A DNA stretch of 20,460 nt from a virus: positions 1-20,460 of IMG/VR virus record IMGVR_UViG_3300034068_000356. One strand, given 5' to 3'. Position numbers and translations under genes: made by a program. The notes beneath the pieces are model-generated. The model was not told the DNA's origin, searched no databases, and saw nothing but the letters and a program-made list of their open reading frames with translations. Below, piece after piece: positions 6,816-18,403 of the stretch (within the stretch, counting starts at the first letter, position 1; each line of letters opens with the position of its first letter).

Positions 6816-7979
6816 TTATATACTAGTATTTACATTAAAAAATTTATATCCGTATTTGACTAAATCACCTACGTTATCAACCTCACCTAATCTCTCAACT
6901 CTTTCAAGTGCTGAGTTCTTACCCCTCTCAATAAATATATTGGATTGCACTTCTGCCTCATCAATTATACCTAATAATAACTCATTTTTTATAATTGGTT
7001 CACAAACTACCATATCAGAGGTTAAACCCATAGATTTTACAACAAAAAGTGTGGTTCCATCAGGATAATCATAATAATCAATACCATTAATTGTATAGGA
7101 AGTTACTAAACCATCCGAACTTACCCCTTTATATGTACCAACCATTCCGGTATTCCCTGTTACCTCAATACCTGGTTTATATAACAGAGTCCCATATTGT
7201 TTTAAATCACTTAACGATGATGTAGTATAACCGGTAATTAAAAATGGAACAGTATTCACCGGGTTAAATAAATCAATATCATTTAACGTCGCCCCACAAC
7301 TTGAATCACCACTAAATATATAATCATATGATAATAAGGTATTGGACCAATTACCACCCGCAGGTTGGAAATGAGCGATCCCTTTAACATTTGAGATTGT
7401 CACACCCGTAAATGGTGTTGTTACAGTTTTTGTTATTATATTTGTTCCCCAAGGACTCATACCCGACATAGTGATTGTATATGACGTAGCATTTGGATAA
7501 TTATGAATTAATGTTGTCGATGTTACCGGTTCAACAACCCCATCCCCCCAATCAATAGTATATGTTGAAAATTCTAAATATTTTTTAAACTCAATATCGG
7601 ATGTGTTATAAAAATAACACCTATTGGGGTTTAAACTATTACCTGAAAAAACAAAATTTAACATAGTATCCTGTTGTAACACCATACCATCAAATGTGGA
7701 ATAATACCCAACATCAATCGTATTTTCTGTGAATAATATAGGTATCGTTAATCCGGTTAATAATGACGAACCATTAGTTCCACCAGACAATACTTCCGTC
7801 ATTGATGAATAAACATAAGACGTACCCGTTAAATCGATTTTAAAGGTCTCTGCCGGTATTATACAACACTCATTAACTATTCCGGTTCCTGTTATGGAAC
7901 CAGCGTTATAAGTGACTTTAAAAATGTCCCCATTAATAAATTCTGGCGATATTTTAATACGATAATCTCTTTCTGTCAT
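6816..7979 (-). CDS. PKD-like domain structural protein (387 aa)
   Basis: Residues about 135-175 have the hallmark of a PKD-type Ig-like domain: a YTIDWGDG strand (WGDG at 144-147), then HNYPNATSYTITMSG at 159-173, matching the WGDG...H.Y...Y.v.v pattern. PKD domains are surface binding or spacer modules, common in Bacteroidota extracellular proteins and in some phage fibres. The N-terminus (MTERDYRIKISPEF) has no signal peptide. CC at 38-39 and single Cys residues elsewhere are present, with no evident metal site. The rest is beta-rich and unrecognised. It sits one base after the upstream stop and one base before the downstream gene. It is probably an exposed baseplate or fibre component. 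Confidence 0.85.
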   Translation of the reverse strand: MTERDYRIKISPEFINGDIFKVTYNAGSITGTGIVNECCIIPAETFKIDLTGTSYVYSSMTEVLSGGTNGSSLLTGLTIPILFTENTIDVGYYSTFDGMVLQQDTMLNFVFSGNSLNPNRCYFYNTSDIEFKKYLEFSTYTIDWGDGVVEPVTSTTLIHNYPNATSYTITMSGMSPWGTNIITKTVTTPFTGVTISNVKGIAHFQPAGGNWSNTLLSYDYIFSGDSSCGATLNDIDLFNPVNTVPFLITGYTTSSLSDLKQYGTLLYKPGIEVTGNTGMVGTYKGVSSDGLVTSYTINGIDYYDYPDGTTLFVVKSMGLTSDMVVCEPIIKNELLLGIIDEAEVQSNIFIERGKNSALERVERLGEVDNVGDLVKYGYKFFNVNTSI

Positions 7980-7980
7980 A

Positions 7981-8814
7981 TTACGGATTTATATATTCAT
8001 ACCATTTTATTGAACTTGTCGTTCCAACTCTTGTGTTTACATTATTAAAAACTTCATACGTTTTTTCCGTATAGTTTAATCTAACTTCATAGTAAAAAAA
8101 ATCTTCCGGATTAAACCTGAATTTTGAAGGAATATCACTTTGAGGTGTGTTAGTCATTTTAACAAAAACTCCTAATCTTGCATCAAAGAATTTTGCCGTC
8201 ATATAAAACTTACTAATATCCAAAAATTTCGTATTTCTTAACCAATACAAGAAGAACCCCTCTTTATCCCCAACATAATCTAACTTAAATGATGGTATTT
8301 TAATATCAACAGATGGTTTATATGAACTGGTCGATGCCGTTACAGTATATCCTTGTTGAACGGGTATTATTACAGTAAAATAATTGGTCTGTGTAATAGT
8401 GTCTTTACTATCATAAAAATCCAATTTAAAAAACGATTTGGTGAATGGTTTCACATAATAATATACTTCAATTGTCGTAAATCCTTCCGGAATATAACTA
8501 GTCACCCAAGCATTCGATGATGCCGTGGTAACTTGTGTTGACGGATTTGATGGAACACTCCCATTAACACTAAAAAAATGAAAATCATATTTAATGTCAG
8601 TTTTCGTATCATTATTATACGGTGAATGAGCAAATCTAAACACCTCGAAATCCCCAGGGAATCCAATAATATCCTCAACAACATTCTGTTGGTATTCCTC
8701 AACAGCATCATCCTGCCCAAGAATATCCCATTTAATCTCAATCGGTATATTGATATATTTGTCGTTACCTTTTGGTAAGGTAAATTTATAACTGTTATTA
8801 TTCACAATCGTCAT
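7981..8814 (-). CDS. Hypothetical structural protein (277 aa)
   Basis: The start is the ATG at 8814, inside the end of the 607-aa gene (17-bp overlap, different frame), giving the N-terminus MTIVNNNSYKFTLPKGNDKY. No known domain is visible. The composition is aromatic-rich (many Phe and Tyr) with alternating hydrophobic residues, suggesting beta-sandwich folds (for example GFTTIEVYYYVKPFTKSFFK). There is no signal peptide, membrane span or cysteine cluster. The overlapping start and the 1-bp gap to the PKD gene imply coupled translation with neighbours in the structural operon. A tail or baseplate accessory role is inferred from context. Confidence 0.8.
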   Translation of the reverse strand: MTIVNNNSYKFTLPKGNDKYINIPIEIKWDILGQDDAVEEYQQNVVEDIIGFPGDFEVFRFAHSPYNNDTKTDIKYDFHFFSVNGSVPSNPSTQVTTASSNAWVTSYIPEGFTTIEVYYYVKPFTKSFFKLDFYDSKDTITQTNYFTVIIPVQQGYTVTASTSSYKPSVDIKIPSFKLDYVGDKEGFFLYWLRNTKFLDISKFYMTAKFFDARLGVFVKMTNTPQSDIPSKFRFNPEDFFYYEVRLNYTEKTYEVFNNVNTRVGTTSSIKWYEYINP

Positions 8815-10621
8815 TTATTGGTTGAGCCGCTCCGTAAAGAGTCGAATAATTATGTAAACTACTTTCTATATAATTAGTTCCTTCCGGTATTATTCTAAAA
8901 ATAAAATTCTCATATGGATAATGTTTTCCATTTAAAAATGGATAATCAACACCATTACCCCCACCGTCCTTAAAACCATAGGTATATAAATCTCTCCAAA
9001 TAAACGAATTATAGGTTGTTGAGAAATATGAATAATCCGGAACATCCGCCATATTCTTAATACTACCTGTCTCAATATAGTCAGAATAATCTCTAATCAT
9101 CATTCTATTGTGAGGTTGGTAATAATACCCCATTTGATTATTATTATCGTCCGTTGAGCTAATATCAAAAACATAACTGTTAAACGTAAATTTATGAGAA
9201 ACATCACTAATTAATCTTTCCATTTGTTCGTAATCATTCCACTCATAAATTCCACCATCAACAACATCACCTTCTTTTAATGATTCCATATATTTAAAAA
9301 CAATCGAACTAGCTGTTGCCGGTGTAAATGTTCCCAAAGGGTAAGGTAAATTATTTTCATCAACAAAATTGGACGGTGAGTTAGATGCACTCCACCAAGA
9401 ACTAGGCGTTCCAAGAGGTGATAACGGTAAATTAAAACCGTACCCCTGTTTTAATCCAACATACACACCTTGATTATTTTTTGACCCAAGAGTCAACCCA
9501 AAATACCCTTTCCATATTGTTGTAACATATAAATCAGTTATCGGTCTCTTTTGGTTATCCCTTAATGGACTAACATCAATGTCTTTATTAAAAGATAAGG
9601 TATACGATTGAGCACCTTCTTTAATAGAAACTCTTTTAACATTATTAGGAGTATAAACAGAACTTTCAAATTTCTTTTTAGCTCCAAATATATTTTGCTC
9701 AAACCCCGCATTAACCATCACCGCATCATTAACATTAGTCAATAATTTATGTTGTAAAACATAATACTTAGACGTTGTATCACCAGGGTTTTCATAATTA
9801 ATTATTCTTTTAAATGTTCCATTATACCCCGCAACAAATGAACTCGACGAATAACCAATATTGTAAATGTTAAAAACATATTCTTTTGTACCCGGCATAC
9901 CATTACCTAACTCAAATACTTGATATGTCCCATCAATAATTGTCACCCCATCAACAACTATCTTAATCTTTGCAAATTCACTAACCGATAATCCGTGTTT
10001 AACCGGACATACAAACTGAACCACTTTATTACCATTCACAAATGTATTGTTTGATTTAATAACAAAAGGAATACCATCTGAAACTGTCCACTTTACCGAC
10101 TGTAAATGCACCCCATCGTAATACTCTAAAACTTTATCATAGGAATTTTTATAAGGATAACTCATAAAAAAATTCCAATTATATGTTGAAGCACTTCTCG
10201 ATACAAAATTAATATGATTGTTTGGTGGTTGAGTATAACCACTAACACTATAATCACTACGAACAAAATCAAACTCACTATATTGGGGGAAACCTTCCCA
10301 CCAAACCGCGTCCGGAGTCGAATTGCATTGTAATAACAACGACTTAGTTTCATTTATGTAGTATAAGTTATTCTCTAATGGTGTGTAATTTGTTGTTCCC
10401 GTATACGCATTTTCATACAACAACTGAAACTTACAAACAGGCCTAAATGTTGTTGATTTTTGTCTTTCATCATCAAACACTTGTGCAAGATTAACATCAA
10501 CACTCCTATCAAATTCTTGTAAATTTTTTGTATTTTGAACTAACGGTGTCGGTATCGATAAATCAGTATTGGTCGCCGTTTTATATCGTAATGAACCTAA
10601 AACAATTCTAATGTCATCCAT
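8798..10621 (-). CDS. Hypothetical baseplate/tail structural protein (607 aa)
   Basis: It starts at the ATG at 10621, one base after the stop of the giant 1772-aa gene, and ends inside the next gene. I recognise no family. The sequence is rich in Tyr, Asn, Ser and Phe and looks almost wholly beta, with no signal peptide and no membrane segment. Visible landmarks are CPVKHGLSVSEFAKIKIVVD in the first half, QKRPITDLYVTTIWKGYFG in the middle, and an Asp/Glu-containing C-terminus PINDDCE. By position (gp25, gp6, giant protein, this gene) it occupies a slot comparable to T4 gp8, but I see no sequence support for homology and it is nearly twice that length. Confidence 0.8.
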   Translation of the reverse strand: MDDIRIVLGSLRYKTATNTDLSIPTPLVQNTKNLQEFDRSVDVNLAQVFDDERQKSTTFRPVCKFQLLYENAYTGTTNYTPLENNLYYINETKSLLLQCNSTPDAVWWEGFPQYSEFDFVRSDYSVSGYTQPPNNHINFVSRSASTYNWNFFMSYPYKNSYDKVLEYYDGVHLQSVKWTVSDGIPFVIKSNNTFVNGNKVVQFVCPVKHGLSVSEFAKIKIVVDGVTIIDGTYQVFELGNGMPGTKEYVFNIYNIGYSSSSFVAGYNGTFKRIINYENPGDTTSKYYVLQHKLLTNVNDAVMVNAGFEQNIFGAKKKFESSVYTPNNVKRVSIKEGAQSYTLSFNKDIDVSPLRDNQKRPITDLYVTTIWKGYFGLTLGSKNNQGVYVGLKQGYGFNLPLSPLGTPSSWWSASNSPSNFVDENNLPYPLGTFTPATASSIVFKYMESLKEGDVVDGGIYEWNDYEQMERLISDVSHKFTFNSYVFDISSTDDNNNQMGYYYQPHNRMMIRDYSDYIETGSIKNMADVPDYSYFSTTYNSFIWRDLYTYGFKDGGGNGVDYPFLNGKHYPYENFIFRIIPEGTNYIESSLHNYSTLYGAAQPINDDCE

Positions 10622-10622
10622 C

Positions 10623-13600
10623 TTAATTTACTATATTACTTGTGTTTATCCATTTAGTTCTAAATCTATCAAACGATGACGCTCCTCGTCTTAAACCAAA
10701 GTAAAAATGGAAAGGAGCTCCCGCAGTCACTAATTGGGGACTAATCGGATTATTATCCCAATTACCTGAGCTAGCTGTAATATCAACCGAACTACTACTC
10801 GTTGTAACCGCATATATATACCCTTTTTGATATTGTGTTTGGGTACTACCATCAGTTCTGAAGTATCTCGAATCTTGCTCTAATCTATCTAATGATTGAT
10901 ATTTTTTTGAAAAAATGGTCTTACCATTAACCGAATAATCCCAATTATTTGATTGTAATCCAAATATATAATCAGTATCTTTAATTAACCATTGAGAGAT
11001 TGGAACTCTTTGTGAATACACCGGGAAATTATTAAAAGTACAATTACTCGTTGACGTTCCCGAAGGATTTATAATAGTTCTTTTTGGTGTAATATAATCT
11101 CTCAATTGAGTGTCTGATGAAAAGAAAATACCCAAGACATTATCACAATCAAAAAAGATTGGATTTTGTTTTAATGGGTCAGGATTATCAGGGTAATTTC
11201 CAGATAAGAAAGGAGCAACACCCAATTCCGAGTTAATCGATATTAATTGAGCATAATCAGCATCAATTTGAAAATTAGTTCCACCAATACCAGCGTCACT
11301 TCGGTCATTAGAAAAATACGTTAAAATATTAAGAGAACCCATCAACGATTTTAAAGCCGTACTACTAATAAAACGACTAACAATAAATAAATTAAGGATA
11401 TCATCAACAGTCCCAAAAGACGACGAATCTAATTTATTCACAACATATCCATCATATTCATCTGACATAACGATTTCTTGTATATAATCCGTTCTCGGAC
11501 CTAAATCCATAATAGTTGTAGGAAAACCAATATTACCATTTGAATTTGTTTCAAATTCATTTGTTGTGGTATTATATGGTACTCCTCGATAATAGAAATT
11601 CTTTGATTGAGCATGATATTTAATTGTTTCCGAACAATAAGACATTATTGGTTGATTTGGTGTGTCAGACGTTGGAGATGTATAACCTTTAACCTCATTT
11701 TTAAATGGAAACGCATATAATACCCCATTAACCCAATTATTAACAAATCGATGAGAAAACACATTTCGACACGCACCTAACATTACCATATTTCGAGCAA
11801 TCCATTCAAACATTAAAAGCCAATCATTCCCTAACGATAAAAATATTGTTGTAACGAATCTATAACACCCATATTCAAATATAGTCTCACCCAAATATTC
11901 TTGACAAGAATGACTTTTAATATCAATTGTACCATTAGATGTTCCCGGAGTTCTTTTACAACCATAACATTCTAAATTAACAGAACCATTACACGTAAAC
12001 GAATCAAACACTTTGGTAATACCTGTTGAACCTTGTAAATCCTGATAAACATAAGTTAAATCACCTGAACTAGCACTACCTGTTGAACCTTGACTACTAC
12101 TAATATTTAAAACACCATCTTCCGGAATTAAATATATTTGAAATTTACTATTTTTTTGTAATACCATACCATTACAACAATATTCCTCAACATTTGTTGA
12201 TGTTGGTAATCTATCACCTCTCATAATAATTTGATTACCACTCGAACCTGATGAGAAATTTAAAGTATTCCCTGTTGTATCATATATTGGACTAAAATAA
12301 TTTGATGTTATATAAAAATAATAAACATCACCGCTTTTTATACCTCTGGTATTATAGTTATAATAAAACTGAACACCAATAGGTGGTTCTCCGGTTTCCC
12401 AACAACCAATATTAAGATTAGTATACATAATTGGCCCACCTTCAATTACCTCATTTGGGAAATACCCTTGATTATAACCTGTATTCGCTGAATAAGGACG
12501 TGACCCATCTAAATGATTACTTAAATAAGAACTATTATTAACATAGGTTTGATAAATTCGACAACTAAATCGATTATTTGAATTAACTGTAATCCCTGTC
12601 GTTGGATTAACCGTAACTACATTACCAGTATTTAAGTTTGTCACATTAATAACATTACTCCCCCCACATTGTGGTTGAAAATTAACAGAGTTTTTATCCA
12701 TACTAGAATAATAACTAATTAAATTTGAATTAAATGCGGAATAACCGGAATTTAACACTCCATTAGGGGTTACAACTGGTTGACCTCCTGTATATCCCGT
12801 AGTTGGACCTGTAATTGTCTGAATTTGGGGTTTATATGAAAATGAATTAAAATATAATTTTTGATTTACACCATTATAAGTATCTATCCCAACATTACTA
12901 CCCGCAGTTATTGTGGTAGAACCACTTATAATTATTGATTGAGGATAATTAGTACTTTTATGACTAATATTTAAAAATGAGCCCTGAATTGGTATATTCA
13001 TATGATACCAACCTGTAACTATTTTACTTGAATAATCATTATTACCAAATAATTTACCTAAACCATATGATATAGGAACTTTGGGCGTGTAAGGGTCAAC
13101 ACCTCGATTTAGAATAACAACACAAAGATTATTATGGTCTTCAATAAAATCAAGTGGTTGGAAGGAATTGTTATATTCGGGAGAACCGTAAAAACAATAA
13201 CCACCATATCCAGATTCCCCCATTAAAGTAGTATTACTAAGAAATCGATTATTTAATGAATCATACCCTAAATCCCCACTACATTGTCCACTAAATTGAT
13301 TGTAAGTCATTGCGGTAATTACTTGAAAATATTCAATATCCGTTGGGAACTTATGATAATTATTGACAGTATCCGCAGTAATATTAACGGAAGAATACGT
13401 TTTTGTTAAATTCCCCATTCCATTAGTGTTAGCATAAGTTACGGTTACATTAGTTGAACCTGTTGATGTTACACCGGTAATTGAATTATTACCATATATG
13501 TTAGTTATCCCTCCCGTAAGATTAATGTCTTTACTAATTGTTGGGTCTTGAAACGATATTAATTGACCTGAACTTAAATTTTGAATCGTTGATTTATCAC

Positions 13601-15941
13601 AAATTATAACCATTGTATTATCCGTATGATAAGATTGTTGCCCCGGTTGAAAATTAACCGAAATTTGGTTTACCCCACCACCCGGATTAGTTGTACCACC
13701 ATTAAAATATTTTGCCTTAACATTAAATAAATTAACTCTGTCGGCCAACGGTAAACTTGTGGTGTAAATCCATCTATCCTCAACAGAAGGTTCCCCATTA
13801 GCCTCACTACTAACAACATACTGCATATAAGGAGCACCAATATTATTTGACGCATATTGACCATCATAAATAATACCTGTTAAATTTTGTTGATAAACAA
13901 TAGCTTTTTCCGATGGAAATCCATTAGGGACATCCGGAGTACGAGTTGGGATTTGAAATGTTGACGATTGGAATAAAGTCGATATACCAGGAGATAAACT
14001 TATCGAGGTTATTTTAGTATCTGAGATTATTGACACACACGGAACTAATTTATTACCCGTATTTACATCTGTATTTCCTACGGCATCACCAACATTCTCA
14101 TTTGTACTAGAATCAGGACTACAAGAACATAATTCACAATCCGGATATGTTAAAATAGGAACCTTAACACCCGATAGATTCAACTTAAAAAATAAGATAA
14201 TCACAAGAACAATAAATGCCGCCAATAATAAATAAGCCAAACCGGCCAAGAAAATACCAGCGCTAAACACAACACCAAAACCATAACTAAAAGCACCAAT
14301 ACAAGTATTAACACCAATTATACCATAATAAAGAGCTAAACCTGGTAACAATACTGTCCTTAAAATCCAAACAGCAAAATATAAAATGTGCATCACCAAT
14401 ATTAACGCAAAAAACACAGGTGTTAATATAATACTAAAAAACATAAAAATGATATATAAAATATCAAATCTAAAATTTCCGTCATTTGTTGGGAATCTAT
14501 TATTAAGACCCGAACAAGTATCATCTAATATATTTTTAATACCAATATATCTTTCCATTCCGGAACCACTTGTTGTTCCGTTAATAAATTGAGAAACCGT
14601 ATAAACTTTATTATATTGCATCATATAAAATCTATCTTCACAATCAATCGCTTCTCTAATTATTTTTTGAGATAAAACATTATTAACATCACCAGGTGTA
14701 GCACCTGTATAGGCATAATCAGACCAATCAGTACTAAACGAATAGGATTCATCAATATTAGGTGAAATATATTCTTTAATATTTGGAACTAAAAAATACC
14801 CACGTCTTGTCGACTCACTTAATGATGGTGATTGAGACCATTTAATTTTAAACCTATATTTACCTTTTGTTGGTATACCCTTTTCAGGGTCATTAGATAA
14901 TACTTGTTCCCCAAACTCATTCGTTATATAATAATCCATATTCATAGGAACATCGATTAACCACGTACCGTTTTCATCAATAACCTTACCACCACCTTCT
15001 AAACTAAAATTTTCTAAAATTGGTCTACCACTCGAATCTTGTTGAATTGTCTGTCTAATTGCTAATATATCCCCCGGACCAACGGTTAAATTACATAAAT
15101 GTCCCGACGAACTTGTTGGACGACATCCTGTTGAAAGGGAACTACTATTTGGTCCCGATATGATAGACCCCATAAAAATAGATGTTGGTCGAATATCGAC
15201 ATTCGAGTCACTACTTAAATCAAAATCTGTTCTTGTAATACCTAAATTACAAATTTCAGGTTGACCCCATAACGGTTCCACTTCAATAGATTTATTAAGA
15301 TTAATAATTTGAGGTAACTCACGTAAATTGTTTGATGATTTAAAATTAGTTCCCGCCACTTGTGATTCAGTAGCAATACCCATTCTAATTAAATCCTGAG
15401 GTGATAATGAGAATTCCCCAATATCTGATAAATCAACGTCCATTACGATAGTATGAGACCCCACCGGAACCCCAAATATCATATAATCACCACTATCATT
15501 AGTAATTGTATTATATTTGTAATATTTGTCGTAAACCTCAATTAATGTTGGGTCAGTTAAAACATCCTTTCTAGTAAAGAAAGTTCCTGTCGGAACGTGA
15601 GCACTATATGATTTAACATAAGGTAATAAGTTATATCTATAACCATCATCATTAATATCTAATAATGTTTTATACGGATATAATTCAGAGATAATTGGAT
15701 TTGTTTGGTCTTGACTATCAATGGGAATAAAAATAGACACCTTAGCATTTGGAATACCAAATCCATTATTTACACTAACACGACCAACAATGACACCGTA
15801 ATCGGCACATTGTCTTGTGTAGATATCAGTTTGTAATATTTTTAAGGATAGAATTTCTAAATGCTCGAATTCTTGTTCGATTAATACCTTCAAAGAAGTA
15901 TCCACACCGACCTTCGTTCTTATTCTATATGATTTTGACAT
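10623..15941 (-). CDS. Giant virion protein with carboxypeptidase-regulatory-like N-terminus and internal membrane-like segment (1772 aa)
   Basis: The ATG at 15941 is preceded by the only sizeable gap in the structural block. Residues about 48-75 (YGVIVGRV...IPNAKVSIFIP) and 147-170 (TNDSGDYMIFGVPVGSHTI) fit a carboxypeptidase-regulatory-like Ig fold. Residues 494-585 are an almost uninterrupted hydrophobic block, perhaps three or four membrane helices, followed at 602-607 by CELCSC. Residues 650 to about 1320 are Ser/Thr/Asn/Gly-rich and beta-like. Residues 1346-1411 form a second helical, partly hydrophobic stretch with several Cys. The C-terminus ends in a basic segment (RRGASSFDRFRTKWIN). 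Following gp25 and gp6, it sits where T4 has the large wedge protein gp7, but I see no sequence evidence of homology and it is about 1.7 times longer. It is probably a baseplate-periphery or membrane-engaging component. Confidence 0.85.
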   Translation of the reverse strand: MSKSYRIRTKVGVDTSLKVLIEQEFEHLEILSLKILQTDIYTRQCADYGVIVGRVSVNNGFGIPNAKVSIFIPIDSQDQTNPIISELYPYKTLLDINDDGYRYNLLPYVKSYSAHVPTGTFFTRKDVLTDPTLIEVYDKYYKYNTITNDSGDYMIFGVPVGSHTIVMDVDLSDIGEFSLSPQDLIRMGIATESQVAGTNFKSSNNLRELPQIINLNKSIEVEPLWGQPEICNLGITRTDFDLSSDSNVDIRPTSIFMGSIISGPNSSSLSTGCRPTSSSGHLCNLTVGPGDILAIRQTIQQDSSGRPILENFSLEGGGKVIDENGTWLIDVPMNMDYYITNEFGEQVLSNDPEKGIPTKGKYRFKIKWSQSPSLSESTRRGYFLVPNIKEYISPNIDESYSFSTDWSDYAYTGATPGDVNNVLSQKIIREAIDCEDRFYMMQYNKVYTVSQFINGTTSGSGMERYIGIKNILDDTCSGLNNRFPTNDGNFRFDILYIIFMFFSIILTPVFFALILVMHILYFAVWILRTVLLPGLALYYGIIGVNTCIGAFSYGFGVVFSAGIFLAGLAYLLLAAFIVLVIILFFKLNLSGVKVPILTYPDCELCSCSPDSSTNENVGDAVGNTDVNTGNKLVPCVSIISDTKITSISLSPGISTLFQSSTFQIPTRTPDVPNGFPSEKAIVYQQNLTGIIYDGQYASNNIGAPYMQYVVSSEANGEPSVEDRWIYTTSLPLADRVNLFNVKAKYFNGGTTNPGGGVNQISVNFQPGQQSYHTDNTMVIICDKSTIQNLSSGQLISFQDPTISKDINLTGGITNIYGNNSITGVTSTGSTNVTVTYANTNGMGNLTKTYSSVNITADTVNNYHKFPTDIEYFQVITAMTYNQFSGQCSGDLGYDSLNNRFLSNTTLMGESGYGGYCFYGSPEYNNSFQPLDFIEDHNNLCVVILNRGVDPYTPKVPISYGLGKLFGNNDYSSKIVTGWYHMNIPIQGSFLNISHKSTNYPQSIIISGSTTITAGSNVGIDTYNGVNQKLYFNSFSYKPQIQTITGPTTGYTGGQPVVTPNGVLNSGYSAFNSNLISYYSSMDKNSVNFQPQCGGSNVINVTNLNTGNVVTVNPTTGITVNSNNRFSCRIYQTYVNNSSYLSNHLDGSRPYSANTGYNQGYFPNEVIEGGPIMYTNLNIGCWETGEPPIGVQFYYNYNTRGIKSGDVYYFYITSNYFSPIYDTTGNTLNFSSGSSGNQIIMRGDRLPTSTNVEEYCCNGMVLQKNSKFQIYLIPEDGVLNISSSQGSTGSASSGDLTYVYQDLQGSTGITKVFDSFTCNGSVNLECYGCKRTPGTSNGTIDIKSHSCQEYLGETIFEYGCYRFVTTIFLSLGNDWLLMFEWIARNMVMLGACRNVFSHRFVNNWVNGVLYAFPFKNEVKGYTSPTSDTPNQPIMSYCSETIKYHAQSKNFYYRGVPYNTTTNEFETNSNGNIGFPTTIMDLGPRTDYIQEIVMSDEYDGYVVNKLDSSSFGTVDDILNLFIVSRFISSTALKSLMGSLNILTYFSNDRSDAGIGGTNFQIDADYAQLISINSELGVAPFLSGNYPDNPDPLKQNPIFFDCDNVLGIFFSSDTQLRDYITPKRTIINPSGTSTSNCTFNNFPVYSQRVPISQWLIKDTDYIFGLQSNNWDYSVNGKTIFSKKYQSLDRLEQDSRYFRTDGSTQTQYQKGYIYAVTTSSSSVDITASSGNWDNNPISPQLVTAGAPFHFYFGLRRGASSFDRFRTKWINTSNIVN
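14187..14462 (-). other. Region encoding a 92-residue hydrophobic, multi-helix membrane-like segment
   Basis: This encodes residues 494-585 of the giant protein, from ILYIIFMFFSIILTPVFFAL to AAFIVLVIILFF. R528 is the only clearly charged residue, with one His at 518. The length allows three or four transmembrane helices. Gly/Ala-rich stretches in the middle (GAFSYGFGVVFSAGIFLAG) suggest close helix packing. Large soluble regions flank it on both sides. Confidence 0.85.
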
Positions 15942-16013: not shown

Positions 16014-17852
16014 TTATGAGAAGTTAACAGTTTTTAAGTTTTTAACCCTAATATTGATATCTTTGTTTGGATATTTGATTTGATAAGTTTGATTTGGTTC
16101 CGCAAAAATTGTATCATCAATCAATTCTATTTGATGTGTCGTACTATCTAAATATCGTTGAGATGTTTGAGATGATGAATATTGACCCCCAACTTGGTTG
16201 AATACTTGGATATCTGATAATGAAATTACACCATTTTCACTTTGTATCAACCTTCTTAATTCAGAAATATTAACATTCTCACCCATTTGTCTATTTGTTG
16301 GGTCAAAATACTCTGATACAATCGTAATAATTTGAGAAATAACTGTCCCTTGGTTTTGAGTATTATCTAAAACAACATCAATATTAAAACTTAAATCAAT
16401 AACATTAGCACTTTGGATAGAAACATAATCATTTATCATACGATAGTTTGATAAATAATTTGCAACATTATTTTTTAATGTATTTGAAATTACTTCCGTT
16501 AATCTACCAGTTTCATCATAAGATAACATTTGAACTATTATCTTATTATTATTTTCTGTAATCGATACCTTAGCCGGAGCTCCAAATTGTGACGGCATTG
16601 TTCTAATTATTGACTCATAATCATTCACGGTAACAGCTCTCTTTTGTGATGAAAAATTATACGAAACTAAATTTCTAACTTCTTCTGTTGTTGGGAAACT
16701 AGCCCCACCAATCGCCGCAGTTACATTCGTACATCTTAATGAATTTACGACAGTTGTATTAACACTATCCGAAGGTCCATTAACAAAGAATGAAACTGTG
16801 CCTATTTGAGTAATAGCATTTACCCCAATATTACTACCAACACCACCACCTACTCTATATTGTATGAATAATGTTGTGTTTGGTTTTAATGTACTACCTA
16901 ATGCTAAATTATTTGAATATTTATATAAATTTAATTGAAATCCGTCTCTCGCAAATTCTCTTAACTGTTCGTCCGCCGATTGTGAACCACCACCAAAAGT
17001 AATTTTTAAAAAACCCTCAGGTGTAAATTCAGTTATAAATTTAGTACTAGTCTGAATATACTTACCAACTTTAATCCCCGGAGAATCCGATACTTTTGTC
17101 GGGTCTTCAACAAATACTCTATCTTCCGCCAAAGCATCTACTTCGTACCATCTATTATTTAACCCTAAAAATTCTTGTGCTGACGGAATATTAGTATATT
17201 GAGTACTATCTTTTAGTAAAACGCTAGTAATCCCTAAAACATTCTTATCCGGTAAAAATAATTCGTAAAAAGGTTTAACATCATTTGGTGTTATTACTTT
17301 TTTAAACACTTTTGTCGTTCCATTAACAACAGTTTCTCGTTTAGTGATAGTATAATTTAATAATTTGTTATTTGAATCAAAATTAGGTATTTTTAATCTA
17401 TTAGGGTAACCCTCAGCGTTGATTGGTGAAGCAAAATCAATATCGTAAACTGTTTCAAATACTTGTCCCGCACCATTAACCTGCGAACCTCTCCTTAAAA
17501 TACCACAATACCTTAAATCTTCTTTATCACCATAAGCCGGAACTGTAATTGAGAAATCAACCAAAGCCACCGATGGTCTCATCCCCGGAACTTTCAAACC
17601 GTAGGTTTTTGCAATATTAAAAACAGACGACCTTTGTTGGGCAAATTGTAGGACCGTTTCTTGAATACTTCTATCAATGTTAAATTGTAAATTATCCGTT
17701 ACTGCAGCATTTAAATCTAATAATACCGAAAAAACTGACGCATCATTAAAGTTTTGAATCGTATCAGGATAATACGTTTTAGTAAAGTTAATTAACTCTG
17801 TTCTAATTGATTGGAAATCCCTTGTAGTATAGGAAATTTTCTTATTTGCCAT
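16014..17852 (-). CDS. Baseplate wedge protein, T4 gp6 / baseplate J-like (612 aa)
   Basis: Residues 9-95 fit the N-terminus of gp6/baseplate-J proteins: YTTRDFQSIRTELINF, then FNDASVFSVLLDLNAAVTDN, then an Asp-Arg-x3-Glu-Thr helix and an R..V.N.AK.YG.KVPG segment. Residues from about 403 (RAVTVNDYESIIRTMPSQFG) match the conserved R-A-V-T-x-x-D-Y-E motif of the family. The C-terminal third contains the expected alpha/beta repeat region (NVIDLSFNIDVVLD). At 612 aa it is close to T4 gp6 (660 aa). gp6 dimers tie baseplate wedges into a ring around the hub. The gene starts 4 bp after the gp25-like stop, the same order as in T4. The start MANKKISYTT is at the first ATG of the frame, with an AT-rich upstream and no Shine-Dalgarno. 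Confidence 0.92.
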   Translation of the reverse strand: MANKKISYTTRDFQSIRTELINFTKTYYPDTIQNFNDASVFSVLLDLNAAVTDNLQFNIDRSIQETVLQFAQQRSSVFNIAKTYGLKVPGMRPSVALVDFSITVPAYGDKEDLRYCGILRRGSQVNGAGQVFETVYDIDFASPINAEGYPNRLKIPNFDSNNKLLNYTITKRETVVNGTTKVFKKVITPNDVKPFYELFLPDKNVLGITSVLLKDSTQYTNIPSAQEFLGLNNRWYEVDALAEDRVFVEDPTKVSDSPGIKVGKYIQTSTKFITEFTPEGFLKITFGGGSQSADEQLREFARDGFQLNLYKYSNNLALGSTLKPNTTLFIQYRVGGGVGSNIGVNAITQIGTVSFFVNGPSDSVNTTVVNSLRCTNVTAAIGGASFPTTEEVRNLVSYNFSSQKRAVTVNDYESIIRTMPSQFGAPAKVSITENNNKIIVQMLSYDETGRLTEVISNTLKNNVANYLSNYRMINDYVSIQSANVIDLSFNIDVVLDNTQNQGTVISQIITIVSEYFDPTNRQMGENVNISELRRLIQSENGVISLSDIQVFNQVGGQYSSSQTSQRYLDSTTHQIELIDDTIFAEPNQTYQIKYPNKDINIRVKNLKTVNFS

Positions 17853-17856
17853 AATT

Positions 17857-18315
17857 TTATATATTAATTATTACAAAGTCACTACTATTAAACACATCAT
17901 TATTGATGGTGTAATCAATCTTAACTTTTGCTGTATGTTCTTTATCCGACATATTTGGTACACGAAATATTCTTTCATCATTATCATTAATGTAACTACC
18001 CTTATCTTCATCACCATCTGAGGCCGCCTGAATACTAATGTTAGTTATTGTTATTCCGGGTAAATATGTTCCCGCAGATTCTCTTATTTCCGATTCTATT
18101 TCAGAAAATGTTGGACCATCCAAAGGTTCAAAAATAAATTCATATAACCTTGTACCAAAATCAGGTAAATAATATCTACTACCTTTTTTAGATAATAAAA
18201 GGTGTATTAAATTAGACCTAATCTCTTGGTCGTTATAATCCGATAAATCTAAATATTTTCCATCAAAAGAATCTCTGAACGGAAAAGTTAAACCATATGT
18301 TGTTCCATCTGCCAT
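17857..18315 (-). CDS. Baseplate wedge protein, T4 gp25 / GPW_gp25-like (152 aa)
   Basis: I chose the ATG at 18315 (MADGTTYGLTFPFRD). The in-frame upstream GTG at 18372 lies inside the stem of the nrdA terminator and would add 19 unlikely residues. Residues 31-66 carry the family core: EIRSNLIHLLLSKKGSRYYL, then PDFGTRL and FEPLD, equivalent to the GEr...P.yG..l...lFEp pattern of the gp25-like superfamily shared with type VI secretion TssE. T4 gp25 is about 132 aa, so the length fits, with an acidic insertion (ASDGDEDKGSYINDNDER) near residues 98-115. In contractile systems this subunit starts sheath assembly at the baseplate wedge. It is the first gene of the structural block, directly upstream of the gp6-like gene. 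Confidence 0.92.
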   Translation of the reverse strand: MADGTTYGLTFPFRDSFDGKYLDLSDYNDQEIRSNLIHLLLSKKGSRYYLPDFGTRLYEFIFEPLDGPTFSEIESEIRESAGTYLPGITITNISIQAASDGDEDKGSYINDNDERIFRVPNMSDKEHTAKVKIDYTINNDVFNSSDFVIINI

Positions 18316-18366
18316 AACAATAAATATAGTGTCGTCACTATTTTTTATAAATACCCCAAAATAAAA
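18316..18366 (-). promoter_or_regulatory. Leader / probable promoter region of the structural operon, with hairpin at 18326-18341
   Basis: Between the nrdA terminator and the gp25-like ATG lies a 6-bp inverted repeat (atagtg 18326-18331, loop tcgt, cactat 18336-18341). On the minus strand a TATAAA (18349-18344) lies 28 bp before the start. The flank cactattttt (18336-18345) is identical to that at 15971-15980. Because a terminator lies just upstream, a promoter is expected here, but its exact elements are not certain. No Shine-Dalgarno motif is present. Confidence 0.45.
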
Positions 18367-18388
18367 AATCACGACCGAAGTCGTGATT
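18363..18388 (-). terminator. Rho-independent terminator of nrdA (UUCG loop)
   Basis: Read on the minus strand, AATCACGAC (18388-18380), loop TTCG, and GTCGTGATT (18375-18367) form a perfect 9-bp stem closed by the highly stable UUCG tetraloop. A TTTTTT run follows (18368-18363), overlapping the end of the stem. It lies 15 bp downstream of the nrdA stop (18404-18406), as expected for an intrinsic terminator of minus-strand transcription. Confidence 0.93.
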
Positions 18389-18403
18389 ATTATTTTAATT
18401 CAA

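Follow-up and report, generated by a model that had tools for sequence, protein, structure and literature searches.

Gp7 of phage T4 is a soluble monomer that assembles from solution into the baseplate wedge (PMC3004832). The preliminary description of the locus studied here had taken T4-type wedge proteins to be soluble. This is true of gp7 itself, but residues 881-904 of that protein (NC_000866, T4p152) make up a 24-residue hydrophobic segment, with a 19-mer Kyte-Doolittle mean of up to 2.07, and the GenBank note reads 'C-terminus is predicted integral membrane domain'. Moreover, contractile machines with attached membrane helices are already known. In the thylakoid-anchored contractile injection systems of Anabaena, the tail-fibre-like protein Cis13 has a predicted transmembrane helix that anchors the baseplate, and the deletion of this predicted helix leaves the injection systems free of the thylakoid membrane (PMC8894136). 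T6SS baseplates are reported to be recruited to a membrane complex (PMC4604203). The tape measure of phage TP901-1 has multi-span hydrophobic regions that could not be tied to membrane insertion and for which the recruitment of a chaperone is possible (PMC5099701). Given Cis13 and the TP901-1 tape measure, the earlier statement that the block reported below has no described counterpart was too strong. In the literature searched, no description of a phage wedge protein with membrane helices was found and, as far as these searches show, a multi-helix membrane-like block inside a phage giant encoded next to a wedge protein is undescribed.

Genomic context of the giant protein

The window, that is, the whole stretch of DNA that was analysed, consists of the 20,460 bases of IMG/VR virus record IMGVR_UViG_3300034068_000356. 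The gene order on its minus strand, where the giant and all of its features given below are located, is ribonucleotide reductase large subunit, a gp25-like protein, a gp6-like protein and a giant of 1772 aa, followed downstream by proteins of 607, 277, 387, 302, 1010 and more than 950 aa. The gp25-like baseplate wedge protein (17857..18315, 152 aa from an internal ATG) matches Pfam GPW_gp25 (E 2e-8), whereas the gp6-like baseplate wedge protein (16014..17852, 612 aa) matches Pfam Baseplate_J (E 7e-8) and a PHROG baseplate wedge subunit (E 1.5e-23). The open reading frame of the giant (10623..15941) comes directly after the gp6-like gene and is followed by the 607-aa protein (8798..10621), which has no assigned function. 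This order is conserved: in most loci of both the near and the divergent sets of relatives, the giant lies between homologues of gp25 and gp6 on its upstream side and a homologue of the 607-aa protein on its downstream side. The giant thus occupies a gp7-type position, immediately downstream of gp6 in a baseplate cluster that also includes gp25, and its description as a putative baseplate protein rests on this gene position and not on homology.

Two other parts of the window deserve mention. The listed open reading frame of gp25 starts at a GTG, while most relatives are about 152 aa long and start at an ATG 19 codons further in; the extra codons (18316-18400) overlap a terminator-like hairpin and T-run that would serve the upstream ribonucleotide reductase gene. 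SprB repeats (Pfam E 1.6e-14) are present in the protein encoded at 2-2863 of the window, and a stretch partly resembling it is found at position 145451 of a 308-kb relative (G002). SprB is a surface adhesin of Bacteroidota, and these repeats are a hint that the protein is fibre-like and that the host belongs to the Bacteroidota.

The giant itself had no match in PHROGs at E<=0.1, none above the cut-off of any Pfam family and none by tblastn among the 50,697 phage records of INPHARED, where five of its divergent relatives (L080, L187, L231 and the block-less L156 and L158) had none either. Large proteins encoded beside gp6 in Flavobacterium phage immuto (1265 aa), Microcystis phage Mel-JY01 (1336 aa) and the huge phage LR756508 (1404 aa) were considered as possible relatives, but they are unrelated by profile and no membrane-like block was found in them. 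The only match of the family profile among PDB sequences, a region of an ABC transporter (E 0.15), was taken as a match of composition. Since neither Pfam nor PHROGs nor the phage records that were searched describe the superfamily, it could usefully mark this group of phages.

A hydrophobic block in the giant

Residues 494-585 of the giant (14187..14462) form a hydrophobic block, delimited by composition, conservation and predicted helices. Its composition (no D, E or K, a single R at 528 and a single H at 518) and its coordinates agree exactly with the preliminary description, in which one charged residue was reported ahead of a CELCSC motif (residues 602-607, 14121..14138). Identity, column and length counts divide it into block A (residues 494-527, 14361..14462), a conserved hydrophobic unit with P508 and H518 (codon at 14388..14390), and block B (residues 528-585, 14187..14360), which is hydrophobic and variable in sequence and length. 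The low charge is only mildly unusual because the giant is charge-poor: a run of at least 92 residues with at most one D, E, K or R arose in 7 of 5000 composition shuffles, and low charge was rejected as too weak to serve as sole evidence. The hydrophobicity of the block, on the other hand, exceeds chance, its best 19-mer reaching -17.7 on an octanol-type scale, whereas none of 500 shuffles went beyond -15.8. The 19-residue Kyte-Doolittle mean has a maximum of 2.99 in the block and of 1.29 in the rest of the giant. Four non-overlapping segments are found in the block on the octanol scale, as in hydrophobic helices of about 20 residues that span a bilayer, and the block is hydrophobic on every face (moment 0.01-0.21, mean hydrophobicity 0.61-1.02). 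A tape-measure-like coil is disfavoured for the window's block, since it lacks a polar face.

A second, weaker hydrophobic stretch lies at 11769-11864 (residues ~1360-1391; octanol-type score of -6.8 at 1360-1378). A 22-residue helix is predicted there, just ahead of an N-N-W-V-N-G element (residues 1401-1406, 11724..11741). On visual inspection, this element is recognizable in several distant homologues, among them L156, which lacks the block.

Conservation of the block in the near family

The IMG/VR contigs contain 207 relatives of the giant according to one pattern set and at least 584 according to another. The near-family alignment contains 111 distinct sequences, window included, with 41-79% identity to the window over aligned columns. 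All 111 have a hydrophobic block at this site, and the block is not due to chance composition because all of the aligned sequences have kept it. The idea that homologues would keep it in the gene after gp6 was thus borne out across hundreds of related viral contigs. P484, H518, C602 and C605 are invariant (111/111), C607 is present in 108/111 and P508 in 91/111; the consensus of the cysteine motif is P-x-L-x-Y-P-D-C-x-x-C-x-C. One relative, L053, might have pointed to an artefact, be it a sequencing error, a wrong frame or a composition due to chance, since its giant is split by a frameshift inside the block (7440-7620). Nevertheless, this break corresponds to the loss of one base in a T run with respect to L059 and likely reflects a sequencing or assembly error; the other relatives that span the block are open through it and independent metagenomes agree, so the artefact is refuted by conservation and its probability is negligible.

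The two parts of the block evolve differently. Among the nearest 41 sequences, the mean pairwise identity of block A (0.83) is similar to that of the N-domain (84%), and its charged fraction in the near clade is 0.001. Block B has a mean pairwise identity of 0.33 in the same sequences, yet 67% of its residues are hydrophobic, and residue 494 and P595 lie 48-145 residues apart in the near family. One way to explain the conservation of block A is that the block serves as a structural helix that stays buried, packed against wedge proteins or its own copies and never meeting lipid, as seems to be the case for the hydrophobic segment of T4 gp7. This scenario, the main rival to membrane insertion, is plausible but doubtful. 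A helical bundle does exist in the (gp6)2-gp7 and (TssF)2-TssG wedges, and block A is as conserved in the near clade as the N-domain; yet the sequence and length of block B drift as those of a packed core would not, a behavior that would suit a lipid-facing helix better. Conversely, charged residues are present in block B of more distant relatives, which would count against insertion into a membrane.

Structure prediction

The AlphaFold2 model of residues 1-1150 (87 sequences, mean pLDDT 72, pTM 0.48) contains two helices in the block, at residues 494-552 and 561-586, mostly with a pLDDT of 73-87. They are flanked by linkers of very low confidence (pLDDT < 50), one before the block (residues 450-493, 14463..14594) and one after it (residues 594-651, 13989..14162) that holds the cysteine motif. 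A buried soluble helical bundle had been named as the prediction that would speak against a membrane-like block, and the model does not bury the block in a soluble domain, although it does not fix the placement of the block relative to the domains. The low-confidence linkers on either side are a further point against a buried structural helix. The block alone gave no informative match in the fold search.

Ahead of the block, residues 46-249 (15195..15806) are modelled as a transthyretin-like beta-sandwich of the CarboxypepD_reg type with insertions, according to VIA-align matches to 2nsm (Z 10.4, 79 aligned residues, 2.0 A) and 5aq0 (Z 10.0). The corresponding Pfam family, CarboxypepD_reg, scores 13.8 bits on the giant (E 0.076), below its gathering cut-off of 32.3. 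The model of residues 640-1772 is beta-rich (pLDDT 78, pTM 0.61); its fold search returned no confident match and nothing above chance, which is no proof of a new fold. Since the structural role of the giant is deduced from gene position only, it could be imagined as a non-virion membrane protein of the phage, or as a tail-assembly chaperone, that happens to be encoded in the tail operon. In both sets its place is fixed, with gp6 on one side and the conserved gene of the 607-aa protein on the other; its size, its beta-rich domains and its transthyretin-like domain suit a structural protein, and these observations make such a non-virion role very improbable.

Divergent and block-less homologues

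A more divergent set of 83 loci was gathered by a search with L156, a homologue that lacks the block. In 73 of them, a strongly hydrophobic segment comes right after the N-domain, in the same place as the block; of the other 10, six end at a contig edge before the segment, one has a weak segment (L242) and three have no block. These last, which are homologous to the N-domain of the giant, are L156 (2867-5110, 748 aa) and L158 (9998-12184, 729 aa), which are complete, and L165 (from ~5995, a 752-aa frame cut at its 3' end); the contigs of L156 and L158 were binned to Wolfebacteria and Bacteroidota genomes. The preliminary description had considered that homologues lacking the block would contradict its interpretation: none was found in the near family, but these three do occur at the edge of the superfamily. 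They are natural block-less comparisons, and the complete ones, L156 and L158, would count against membrane insertion. Judging from its distribution, the block is widespread and would either have been lost in some lineages or gained after the root.

Several sequences of the divergent set have a single hydrophobic stretch of 35-40 residues followed by a Cys-rich region. The segment of this set is amphipathic, with a polar G/N/H face (moment 0.39), a point in favor of the buried structural helix: such a segment of ~35-40 residues would also suit protein packing. In L166, L172, L183 and L205, 20-33 cysteines lie between the block and an N-D-W-V-x-G element, and this stretch might be a metal or disulfide domain.

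The phage group and its tail genes

A terminase is present in relatives of 272-322 kb, and a contractile sheath is matched in six of the seven relative records tested, in two below the Pfam cut-off. In the 308-kb relative, the ORFs of at least 90 aa in the 60 kb around the giant were scanned for membrane-like segments (19-mer above 1.8), and in these tail genes of one relative the giant was the only ORF to pass. A 2308-aa ORF of the same relative is likely the tape measure, by its size and place only, and no membrane-like segment was found in it. In locus L161 of this relative (G002 179000-198999), tail proteins are unusually large, with a sheath open frame of ~1200 aa, and neither the 2308-aa ORF nor another of 1646 aa has family matches. 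The giant was also considered as a tape measure and set aside: it is beta-rich outside the block, it comes after gp6 and the 2308-aa candidate lies elsewhere in the relative.

A putative membrane-inserting module

Several scenarios may explain these observations. The one that we tentatively prefer, with a probability of about 0.48, takes the block for a helical module that inserts into a membrane, carried by a giant of the baseplate periphery and used at some stage, be it host entry or assembly at the membrane. Membrane insertion is favored because the block is hydrophobic all round, because block B drifts while its hydrophobicity is kept and because the flanks are flexible. The presence of the giant in the virion, the insertion itself, its timing and the roles of the histidine and the cysteines are what we infer. 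Block A, as a helix kinked or folded into a hairpin near P508/H518, would provide the functional core, and block B would be an additional hydrophobic helix that tolerates drift. The flexible linkers might keep the module tucked away in the assembled baseplate; upon rearrangement of the baseplate on the host, the module would emerge and dock the baseplate or the mouth of the tube in a membrane of the host. The cysteine motif might bind a metal or form a disulfide and so cap the module. Alternatively, the module could be used earlier, while baseplates are being assembled on the inner membrane of the cell that produces the phage.

A more restrictive version of this earlier use would have the block tether the growing baseplate to the inner membrane of the infected cell during assembly, with no role in entry. 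The Cis13 systems, which float free once the predicted helix is deleted (PMC8894136), are a precedent, as is the reported recruitment of T6SS baseplates to a membrane complex (PMC4604203). Yet free particles would have to leave the membrane at lysis, and no release feature was recognized in the sequence. Such an anchor seems quite unlikely to us, even if sequence data cannot separate it from the entry model.

The entry model can itself be made more specific: the giant would be a virion-borne insertion device whose hairpins, pushed into the host membrane as the baseplate rearranges, would build or line a docking collar or a channel for the tail tube, which we regard as rather unlikely. In some other phages, the membrane step is thought to be done by tape-measure proteins. 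If the insertion device were real, the giant would take over this step from the tape measure and would mark a group of contractile phages that is both widespread and uncultured. To our knowledge, the contact of contractile tails with the inner membrane and the passage of DNA through it are still poorly understood. The block is a concrete candidate for this contact, encoded by hundreds of large uncultured phages and unique among the tail genes of the relative scanned.

Comparison with known systems

The CarboxypepD_reg domain shares its fold with residues 46-249 in the model, but the giant has large insertions, and this likeness concerns the N-domain only and is silent on the block. Tape-measure proteins such as that of TP901-1 and pb2 of T5 resemble the giant in having several adjacent membrane-like segments in a large tail protein; in contrast to them, the giant follows gp6, is beta-rich and coexists with a separate 2308-aa candidate that has no such segment. 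By analogy with TP901-1, hydrophobic tail regions can serve assembly instead of membranes, which would count against insertion.

T4 gp7 (PDB 5hx2, 5iv5, 5iv7) is also encoded directly after gp6 and is a large multi-domain wedge protein with one hydrophobic helix. Since this segment is annotated as a membrane domain in what is a soluble wedge monomer, gp7 would be the strongest counter-argument to membrane insertion and an argument for a buried helix. Nevertheless, its segment is single, near the C-terminus and weaker (2.07 vs 2.99), whereas the 92 aa of the block form a longer stretch with 3-4 segments, and gp7 has 1032 aa versus the 1772 of the giant. The giant-family profile does not match gp7 in hhalign (probability 0.5%, E 0.13), gp7 being represented by a single sequence, and the gp7 fold, with its helical core bundle and its trifurcation domain, is not among the PDB matches listed for either model of the giant, in searches that are weak with models of this size. 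Cis13, for its part, is trimeric, has its helix at the C-terminus and belongs to a cellular injection system, while the block is internal to a phage protein. The likeness lies in a baseplate-associated protein of a contractile machine that carries a predicted membrane helix, and as such Cis13 supports, by analogy, the reading of the block as a membrane-inserting module.
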